Assembly (NCBI RefSeq): GCF_017487345.1
Contig: NZ_CP062006.1
Span: forward strand, 2,362,001 to 2,426,000
DNA length: 64,000 nt
Reading direction: 5' to 3'
Source: Brevundimonas pondensis
GTDB lineage: Bacteria; Pseudomonadota; Alphaproteobacteria; Caulobacterales; Caulobacteraceae
Shown here: positions 37,325 through 64,000 of the stretch, in pieces
How positions within the stretch are numbered: the first letter of the stretch is position 1
Layout of the letters: each line of letters starts with the position of its first letter
Program-made: the position numbers and the translations under genes
Notes under the pieces: generated by a model
What the model saw: only the letters and a program-made list of their open reading frames with translations
Databases searched by the model: none
What the model was told of the DNA's origin: nothing

Positions 37325-37376
37325 AGAAGCTGAACGGGCCTCAAGTAGGCCGAAGGCCGGTAGGCCCAAACAAAAA

Positions 37377-37757
37377 CGCCAGACGGCCTGTAAGCCGGGT
37401 TCTGTTCCGCCCGAAAGCGGCGACGATCATTCCTCTGGACCGCCCATTGCTGAGCGGTTCTCGCGACCTACCCGGACGTCTCGGGCGGTGAACCCTGCGG
37501 CCGAAACCGCGCGACGTCCCTATTCGGTCTTGCTCCAGGCGGGGCTTGCCATGCCGCCGACGTTGCCGCCGACGCGGTGGGCTCTTACCCCACCCTTTCA
37601 CCCTTCCCCGGGCCGGAGCCCAGGCGGTTTGCTTTCTGTGGCGCTGTCCCTCGGGTCGCCCCGGGCGGGAGTTACCCGCCGCCTCTTCACCGTGGAGCCC
37701 GGACTTTCCTCGACAAGAGCAAGCTCTCGCCGCGACCGCCCGGCCGTCTGGCGGGGG
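37377..37757 (-). ncRNA. rnpB: RNase P RNA (type A)
   Basis: Catalytic RNA that removes tRNA 5' leaders. On the minus strand the universal segments appear in order: GAGGAAAGTCCGGGCTCC (37694-37711), AGGGACAG...CCACAGAAA, GGGTGAAAGGGTG, GGTAAGAGCCCACC and ACAGAACCCGGCTTA (37391-37405). The P1 helix closes the molecule: 37742-37753 is the exact reverse complement of 37377-37388. A T-run (37371-37376) follows the 3' end. Length is about 380 nt; the exact 5' end is estimated. It starts about 27 bases after the amidase stop. Confidence 0.96.
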
Positions 37758-62769: not shown

Positions 62770-63426
62770 TTAAGCGGCGTTAGCCAGAGCCCCCTCGCCC
62801 CAGGCGATGAAGTCAGGCTGGGCCAGCAGGGCGTCGACATAGGCGCGGGCTGCGCCATCCGTGTCGCCGTGCGCGGCCAGATCGATCTGGAAATGACGCA
62901 CCCGCGCCGCGACCGGGGTGAAGAAGGCGTCAGCGATCGACCACTCGCCGTACAGATAGTCGCCGCCAGCGCCGAAGCGGGCGCGGGCCTCGCGGAAGAT
63001 CTGCACCAGACGGCGGATGTCGGCGGCCGTATCCTCGCCCTTCGGCGGCGGGCTGCGGTCGGGGCCCACCATGGAATGGTCCGGCGCCATGGCGCACTCG
63101 TTGCGCAGGGCCATGAAGCCGGAATGCATCTCGCAGACCACCGACCGGGCCTGCCAGCGCGCATGGGCGTCGGCGGGCCACAGCCCAGCCTCGGGATAGC
63201 GTTCGGCGCACCAGACCGAGATGGCCAGGCTGTCCCAGATGGTCTCGCCATCGACCTTCAGCACCGGGACGCGCCCGGCGGGCGAATGAAGCGCGATCTG
63301 CTCGGCGGTGTCGGGGCGGTTCAGACGGATGACCGTCTCGGTGAAGTCCGCGCCGCAGCGCTTCAGCACCAGCCAGGGCCGCAACGACCAGGTGGAATAG
63401 AGCTTGTCACCGATCACCAGTTCCAT
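62770..63426 (-). CDS. Glutathione S-transferase family protein
   Basis: A 218-residue protein. The N-terminal thioredoxin-like domain starts MELVIGDKLYSTWSLRPWLV, with the cis-Pro motif GRVPVLKVDGETIWDSLAISVWCAERYP, followed by an all-helical C-terminal domain (NECAMAPDHSMVG, YLYGEWSIADAFFTPVAARVRHF). I start at MELVIGD, with AGGAG upstream; the open frame further up is unlikely. The substrate is unknown. It lies 29 bases downstream of the gdx-like gene on the same strand and may be co-transcribed. Confidence 0.9.
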   Translation of the reverse strand: MELVIGDKLYSTWSLRPWLVLKRCGADFTETVIRLNRPDTAEQIALHSPAGRVPVLKVDGETIWDSLAISVWCAERYPEAGLWPADAHARWQARSVVCEMHSGFMALRNECAMAPDHSMVGPDRSPPPKGEDTAADIRRLVQIFREARARFGAGGDYLYGEWSIADAFFTPVAARVRHFQIDLAAHGDTDGAARAYVDALLAQPDFIAWGEGALANAA

Positions 63427-63455
63427 GGTCGTCGCTCCTGTTGGGCTGTCGCCCA

Positions 63456-63776
63456 TCAATGGCTGGAGGAGAGCTTCAGCACAACCAGGCCCGAGATGAT
63501 CAGGACCGCGCCGCCGATCCGCATGGGGGTGATGGGTTCGCCCAGAACCGCGATGCCGACCACGAAGGCCCCGACCGCGCCGATGCCGGTCCAGATCACA
63601 TAGGCGGTGCCCAGCGGCAGGGTCTTCATCGAGATCGACAGCAGGCCGAAGCTGATGATCATGAAGACGATGGTGCCTATCGTCTGCCACGGCTTCGAAA
63701 ACCCGTCCGACGCCTTCATCAGGAAGGCCCAGACGATCTCGAACAGACCGGCGAGAAGAAGGAAAATCCAGGCCAT
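63456..63776 (-). CDS. gdx: Small multidrug resistance family exporter, probable guanidinium exporter Gdx (SugE)
   Basis: A 106-residue four-helix membrane protein. The key Glu13 is in MAWIFLLLAGLFEIVWAFLM, followed by KASDGFSKP and the four spans. The WAFLMK sequence after the Glu fits the Gdx (guanidinium/H+ antiporter) subgroup rather than EmrE. The call is reinforced by a guanidine-II riboswitch immediately upstream on the same strand. Start is the ATG at 63776, 7 bases after AAGGGAG. Confidence 0.93.
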   Translation of the reverse strand: MAWIFLLLAGLFEIVWAFLMKASDGFSKPWQTIGTIVFMIISFGLLSISMKTLPLGTAYVIWTGIGAVGAFVVGIAVLGEPITPMRIGGAVLIISGLVVLKLSSSH

Positions 63777-63783
63777 GACGCTA

Positions 63784-63848
63784 CTCCCTTGCATGGCGAG
63801 CCGGGTCGTCCCGGCAGTCATGCCCAAAGAAGGGAGAGGTCGTCCTCT
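63784..63848 (-). promoter_or_regulatory. Guanidine-II riboswitch (mini-ykkC) controlling gdx
   Basis: On the minus strand two hairpins with ACGA loops are present, the defining feature of mini-ykkC: P1 AGAGG-ACGA-CCTCT (63848-63835) and P2 CCGGG-ACGA-CCCGG (63814-63801). The linker contains CTCCCTT (63836-63830), exactly complementary to the ribosome binding site AAGGGAG (63790-63784) of gdx. Guanidine binding stabilises both hairpins and should free the site. Everything is read from sequence; the ligand is assigned by family. Confidence 0.9.
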
Positions 63849-63930: not shown

Positions 63931-64000
63931 ATGATCACGCGCTATACCCGCCCCGAAGCCGTCGCCATCTGGTCGCAAGAGACCAAGTACAAGATCTGGT
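63931..64000 (+). CDS. purB: Adenylosuccinate lyase (N-terminal start, cut by window edge)
   Basis: The first 23 codons read MITRYTRPEAVAIWSQETKY then KIW, matching the conserved PurB start (MI-x-RY-x-RPEM-x-x-IW). The gene is divergent from the gdx riboswitch, 83 bases away. The rest lies outside the window, so the enzyme cannot be checked further. Confidence 0.85.
   Translation, partial: MITRYTRPEAVAIWSQETKYKIW

Follow-up and report, generated by a model that had tools for sequence, protein, structure and literature searches.

A Probable Guanidine-II Riboswitch in the Leader of a gdx-Type SMR Gene of Brevundimonas pondensis

The gdx locus and its leader

The window (the whole 64,000-nucleotide stretch of Brevundimonas pondensis DNA analyzed here) carries near one end a minus-strand gene of the SMR family preceded by a compact leader, the parts of which are listed in Table 1. 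Read 5' to 3' from 63848 to 63776, these are hairpin P1, a 19-nt linker, hairpin P2, TCGC, CATGC, the Shine-Dalgarno (SD) sequence AAGGGAG, seven bases, and ATG; P2 is closed by G-C pairs only (6 bp), and P1 has three G-C and two A-U pairs (5 bp). A preliminary description, made from the letters of the DNA, had placed two ACGA-loop hairpins upstream of the SMR gene and had taken the linker between them to be complementary to the ribosome binding site. The hairpins are present at those positions on the minus strand and the complementarity is exact over 7 nt in the window sequence (CTCCCTT against AAGGGAG), but the anti-SD does not abut P1, as had been stated; it overlaps the 3' arm of P1 by two bases (63836-63835).

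Table 1. Coordinates of the gdx gene and of the elements of its leader
Feature	Position in window	Strand	Description	Basis
P1 hairpin	63848-63835	minus	5-bp stem AGAGG/CCTCT; ACGA tetraloop at 63843-63840	Sequence and RF01068 alignment
Anti-Shine-Dalgarno CTCCCTT	63836-63830	minus	First two bases in 3' arm of P1	Sequence; paired with SD in minimum-energy fold
P1-P2 linker, 19 nt	63834-63816	minus	Starts with most of the anti-SD	
GCATG (linker) with CATGC	63823-63819 with 63795-63791	minus	Paired with each other	Predicted off-state fold
P2 hairpin	63815-63800	minus	6-bp stem GCCGGG/CCCGGC; ACGA tetraloop at 63809-63806	Sequence and RF01068 alignment
Shine-Dalgarno AAGGGAG	63790-63784	minus	7 nt upstream of ATG at 63776	Predicted 0.99 paired in free RNA
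CGTC adjoining start codon	63780-63777	minus	Complement of GACG at P1 loop; putative role	
gdx	63776-63456	minus	Probable SMR-family guanidinium exporter, 106 aa	Pfam PF00893, structure relatives, Gdx residues

The best relatives of the SMR protein among solved structures are 8vxu (E 9e-28) and 6wk5 (E 1e-27), which are labelled as SMR family and which we take to be Gdx-Clo. The window protein has all of the Gdx residues E13, W16, S42, Y59, and W62. Of these, W62, S42, and W16 are described as surrounding E13 and the guanidinyl group of the substrate, Y59 as competing for E13, and W16 as conserved in Gdx but not in Qac proteins (PMC7695847). Among 196 proteins compared (30 genus canonical, 30 family canonical, and 136 variant, with the 53 short genus loci L092 to L144 left out, and with rows filtered for E or Q near position 13 and one of W, G, F, L, or A near position 16), E13, W16, Y59, and W62 are present in all 196 and S42 in 195. 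The NCBIfam SugE equivalog model gives 103.8 bits and does not reach its cut-off of 126, although it is still the best family. The Gdx residues and the leader together support the earlier assignment of the gene as a probable guanidinium exporter, and they provide gdx with a probable regulator that standard annotation does not report.

A glutathione S-transferase (GST)-like gene (62770-63429) follows gdx, and the divergent gene starting at 63932 may be purB, judged by its look alone. The same genome has a second SMR gene (G000:C1:470826-471131), which is 47% identical and is without a guanidine-II match. On the other side of P1, at window positions 63884-63857 on the minus strand, there is a TTGACTT sequence followed about 10 bases on by TGTCCCAGAT(A/T); both are conserved 5' of P1 in the majority of 29 canonical genus leaders. 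They suggest a promoter with the transcript starting just before P1; a promoter consensus scan did not have this TTGACTT/TGTCCCAGAT(A/T) box upstream of P1 among the sites that it found.

Membership in the guanidine-II class

The Rfam guanidine-II covariance model, proposed in the preliminary description as a check, does match the leader, though under its cut-off. RF01068 (Guanidine-II, mini-ykkC) aligns over the full model (positions 1-48) with 30.6 bits and an E value of 1.2e-4 in the 236 bases searched, 1.4 bits short of the gathering score of 32 bits, which is a cut-off of the curated model and not a chemical feature. The outer three of the eight RF01068 P1 pairs are unformed in the window leader, and their absence accounts for the missing 1.4 bits. 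In a search of the whole genome the leader is the sole RF01068 match both at E 0.001 and at 0.1 (E 4.2e-4), and the Guanidine-I and Guanidine-III models have no match at 0.001. Standard annotation overlooks the leader because its score lies below the gathering cut-off, and a gathering-score Rfam scan of the window does not report it, giving an RNase P and a tRNA only. The RNase P RNA is of bacterial class A and lies at window positions 37375-37751 on the minus strand.

Other features of the class are plainly there. The leader has two G+C-rich stem loops, and the ACGR tetraloop that characterizes both guanidine-II hairpins (PMC5486947) occurs twice as ACGA; the 19-nt linker falls within the range given for the class, which is 7 to 40 nt and mostly 13 or more (PMC7544219, PMC5486947); and the neighboring gene is guanidine related, coding for an SMR protein with the Gdx residues. 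The motif pair is also rare by chance, the window having a single GGACGACC-N8-38-GGACGACC where shuffles have 0.01. The less strict GGACGRCC pair has five occurrences across the 3.55-Mb genome, but it is uninformative because its reversed control is commoner (37); only one of the five, the window leader, has GGACGACC in both copies.

Similar leaders are widespread in the genus. A protein search of 131 Brevundimonas genomes gave a match at 1e-20 in 101, with 83 loci below E 1e-30; these make up the genus set (L032 to L061 and L092 to L144), one of which, L123, has an in-frame stop. A two-hairpin leader precedes the SMR gene in all 83, canonical in 36 (window included) and of a variant form in 47 (46 sorted by script, and L137 assigned by eye), and 29 of the 30 model-found genus loci have two ACGA hairpins directly before the gene. 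Of 60 loci from canonical-leader searches, 59 have a purB-like gene, a GST gene, or both, the one with neither also being without an SMR gene; nine variant genus loci have neither a purB-like nor a GST gene within about 1.5 kb.

A score of 30.6 bits against a cut-off of 32, with a P1 of only 5 bp, might be expected of a degenerate leader whose hairpins are a relic and whose guanidine binding is lost. Such decay is most improbable here, given that both loops and the adjoining two G-C pairs are invariant in the 36 canonical genus leaders while the linker varies (with P1 partly fixed by the sorting pattern, and with the remaining 47 of the 83 loci all of one variant type), and that RF01068 matches above the cut-off are found in 21 of the 131 genus genomes, even though the window's own leader falls below it. 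The window leader very probably belongs to the guanidine-II (mini-ykkC) riboswitch class, and the earlier reading of it as such is supported by the near-cut-off model match, the two ACGR loops, the gene with Gdx residues, and the same hairpins in 36 of the 83 genus loci. A full-text literature search gave no paper joining guanidine-II, riboswitch, and Brevundimonas.

Leader folds and control of translation

In the predicted minimum-energy fold, the free leader forms a single long stem that encloses P2 and masks the SD, with CTCCCTT paired to AAGGGAG and GCATG to CATGC (Table 1); P1 is absent, since its 3' arm and loop are engaged elsewhere in this fold. In the mechanism that we propose, these same pairings of the CTCCCTT after P1 and of GCATG would form without guanidine, and the resulting long stem around P2 would block formation of P1. 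Guanidinium at the ACGA loops would bring P1 and P2 to kiss, which would remove the 3' arm of P1 together with part of the anti-SD, open the ribosome site, and raise translation of the exporter.

Forcing both P1 and P2 to form costs 3.5 to 6.4 kcal/mol, depending on the assumed 5' end, and in the secondary-structure model the SD is then still 0.47 to 0.75 paired and the AUG 0.44 to 0.73 paired; forcing the SD open as well adds about 2 kcal/mol, with the AUG then 0.66 to 0.95 paired. The energy of the ligand could drive the switch in these models, and secondary structure alone gives no clean release. Because the SD and AUG stay partly paired with the hairpins formed, the release step would have to be assisted, by the tertiary contact between P1 and P2 or in another way. 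The kissing hairpins are described as lying end to end, with a linker that has to span both (PMC5486947); a linker stretched in this way would oppose pairing with the SD, and a tertiary kissing step may thus complete its release.

The complementarity of linker and SD is weak when taken alone, because its hybrid energy is matched by 167 of 2,000 dinucleotide shuffles of the P1 arm and linker. Cognate linker-SD pairs hybridize slightly better than swapped ones (p 0.02 for 32 distinct leaders; p 0.09 for 7 clusters), and when P1 and P2 are forced in 29 genus leaders the predicted pairing of the SD goes down in 27 and is equal in 2, which is partly an effect of the constraint itself. L006 and L007 have GGAAAG as the SD and a linker with CUUUUC or CUUUC, a matching change, and the best free fold of L007 is without that pairing. 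The free fold prefers P1 in 3 of the 29 leaders (L016, L020, and L027; probability of at least 0.97), and in 4 more (L007, L023, L024, and L025) the probability of P1 is near one half (0.40 to 0.52).

Two other modes of control bear on the same elements. One keeps the guanidine-II aptamer but makes P1 and the tail behind it, CCCTTCTTTG, a weak terminator, or else places control at RNA stability; a simple scan does list P1 and its tail as terminator-like, but this single site is at chance level against 0.4 +/- 0.7 in shuffles, the tail falls short of a true U-tract, and CCCCCACATGGG stands in its place in many of the other canonical genus leaders, all of which makes such control decidedly unlikely. 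The other has the GACG of the P1 loop pair with YGUC before the AUG, so that the ligand loop itself would mask the start codon and outweigh the SD. All 36 canonical genus leaders (32 distinct) have GTC just before the start, compared with only 3 of 46 variant ones, and for several leaders the free fold is predicted to contain a GACG-YGUC pairing. The GACG partner never varies, however, which leaves no covariation, and the 4-bp helix is weak. Because GTC is common in other SMR leaders as well (22 of 30 family canonical and 27 of 136 variant), a role for GUC is kept merely as a rival, and an unlikely one.

Control by way of the linker anti-SD is the route that we consider likely. For the translational on-switch claimed in the preliminary description there are the exact 7-nt complement and the predicted competing fold, set against a weak shuffle control and a modelled on-state that is not clean. 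Nor is the mechanism more explicit here than usual, as had also been said, because the linker anti-SD model is the published one for the class; a putative linker anti-SD appears in the E. coli guanidine-II model (PMC9094411). The analysis shows both hairpins, their match to the Rfam model, the linker-SD complementarity, a competing fold, the Gdx signature, and like leaders in relatives, whereas ligand binding, kissing, and a translational response are inferred. The best overall explanation, and a highly probable one even though the modelled pairing of the AUG weakens it slightly, is a guanidine-II riboswitch in the 5' leader of gdx, likely acting as a translational on-switch through its linker anti-SD.

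Variant leaders of relatives and comparison with known systems

The value of the window leader is that nature supplies a comparison for it, in the variant leaders of its close relatives. Those in the genus have a P1 with a 4- to 5-bp stem and a CCACGU hexaloop (CCACGC in 2 of 46), a P2 of the form CCGGG-ACGG-CCCGG in 46 of 46, and, in most, a hairpin in the linker, with 87% of linker cells pairing. Compensating changes among 45 distinct variant rows include A-U to G-C in 3 and G-C to A-U in 1 in P1, and C-G to U-A in 12 in the linker, and the covariation score of this alignment beats 500 of 500 shuffles, although the number of further pair types does not. In a wider alignment of 108 model hits from 100 loci, which was fitted to the structure, takes most of its loci from a pattern scan, and includes four weak hits (E 0.0006 to 0.004; three on the opposite strand of a better hit), 10 of 13 pairs have changes in both partners, a figure that 0 of 500 shuffles attain; such cells number 51, compared with 3 to 31 in slid controls, and the linker helix is paired in only 49% of cells.

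A gathering-score scan of 18 variant loci gave no guanidine match, its six matches being to tmRNA, tRNA, and SAM_alpha, and a loose scan of 6 loci gave RF01068 at most 20.6 bits; none of these 24 loci, which count two organisms twice, is at the Rfam guanidine cut-off. Two further pairings were considered and rejected. An SD hairpin in the variant (GGCCCU/AGGGCC, GGCGUC/GACGCC) is convincing by eye, but has no both-side change and pairs no better than shuffles in an automatic alignment in which diverging rows are misaligned, and the RNAalifold prediction that the P1 loop of the variant pairs with a UGGCC at the start codon is indistinguishable from protein-coding conservation.

The pattern scan (GGCCACGTCC-N18-46-CCGGGACGGCCCGG, one genome per species) gave at least 119 stretches, the matches listed being mostly from Alphaproteobacteria (Sphingopyxis, Methylobacterium, Roseomonas, Henriciella, and Gluconacetobacter), with Zoogloea and Pigmentiphaga in addition; because the pattern fixes the inner P1 pairs, the loop, and P2, the scan is uninformative on the variation of those parts. 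Among the matches listed, an SMR frame starts within 60 nt after P2 in 112 of 119 (the others being L172, L186, L193, L196, L200, L243, and L251), and an SMR homolog lies anywhere in the stretch in 115 of 119. In L172 and L193 the variant leader precedes non-SMR frames of 84 and 59 aa, which were picked mechanically, and Sphingopyxis (L155, L201, and L244) has variant leaders in pairs, spaced by about 400 bases, of which one leader stands before a frame not recognized as an SMR start. The spread is patchy, since a model of the variant matches 55 of 299 genomes of the order at 0.001, canonical leaders included (the window's own with 26.6 bits), and 5 of 385 genomes of the class at 1e-6. Hits not forced by the pattern have P1 loops of CAACGA (L284), CCACGA (L287), and UAACGU (L288), the P2 loop also departing in L287 and L288, and these loops may be read as a two-base insertion that links the hexaloop to ACGA.

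Crystal structures show one guanidine contacted directly by a single loop and stacked on the G that precedes ACGR, with pairing between the C-G steps of the two loops (PMC5486947). In the common variant P1 loop ACG is retained, with C on its 5' side and U on its 3' side, and the kissing pair would therefore survive while the P1 pocket would be lost. A plausible, still tentative reading is that the window leader takes part in a natural swap of P1 loops and descends from, or is sister to, a conserved guanidine-II variant in which kissing is kept and the P1 pocket lost. The stacking guanine would have been replaced by C (by A in CAACGA and UAACGU), the ligand would be either a single guanidine, bound without cooperativity, or some other compound, and an SD hairpin overlapping the 3' arm of P2 would be used. 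Here the conservation, the stem covariation, and the gene context are observed, whereas pocket loss, ligand, platform, and direction of change are inferred.

The ancestry of the window leader was followed in its protein. In a tree of 61 proteins the window group adjoins two variant-led Caulobacter proteins (96/89), far from the family canonical-led proteins, and the window protein is at most 58% identical to the latter versus 79% to the nearest variant-led protein. This careful tree favors a canonical loop that has re-arisen inside the variant clade, but that is not claimed, because a single clade of all canonical-led proteins is not rejected by the AU test (p 0.245), and in a larger quick tree the tree constrained to a canonical clade is better than the free one (p 0.888). 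A comparison of leaders favors variant ancestry in 36 of 36, though it is biased because 165 variant leaders stand against only 28 family canonical ones. Two kinds of P1 loop before the same kind of exporter offer a natural test of whether both guanidine sites are needed, and also of whether guanidine is sensed at all by a conserved form that has a single ACGR loop.

The variant leader was not found described in the literature searched, unless it is GGAM-5, an RNA candidate of Alpha- and Betaproteobacteria most often located before sugE (Lenkeit et al. 2020, PMC7736828), which was the only paper that a full-text search for GGAM-5 gave. The two may be the same, being likened by taxonomic range and genes alone: the range and the commonest gene fit the variant leader of the relatives (not that of the window), although the assortment of genes agrees less closely than the range does. 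GGAM-2 to -6 are reported to show no guanidine binding in initial tests, with false negatives possible (PMC7736828).

The window leader itself is ordinary in kind, belonging to a known class with a published type of platform and missed by standard thresholds. Like RF01068 guanidine-II RNAs, it has two ACGA (ACGR) loops closed by G-C, a 19-nt linker, a position before a gdx/sugE-type gene, and a linker anti-SD; unlike them, its P1 is without the outer three pairs of the model, and its anti-SD shares two bases with P1. Published platforms include an SD-masking P0 helix in P. aeruginosa, for which guanidine-dependent initiation was measured (PMC9561414), and a possible stem-loop overlapping P2 in G. 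violaceus (PMC5486947). These are alike in masking the SD without ligand and exposing it with ligand, as the window leader would do in the linker version, but the masking stem predicted for the window leader encloses P2 and draws on the 3' arm and loop of P1.
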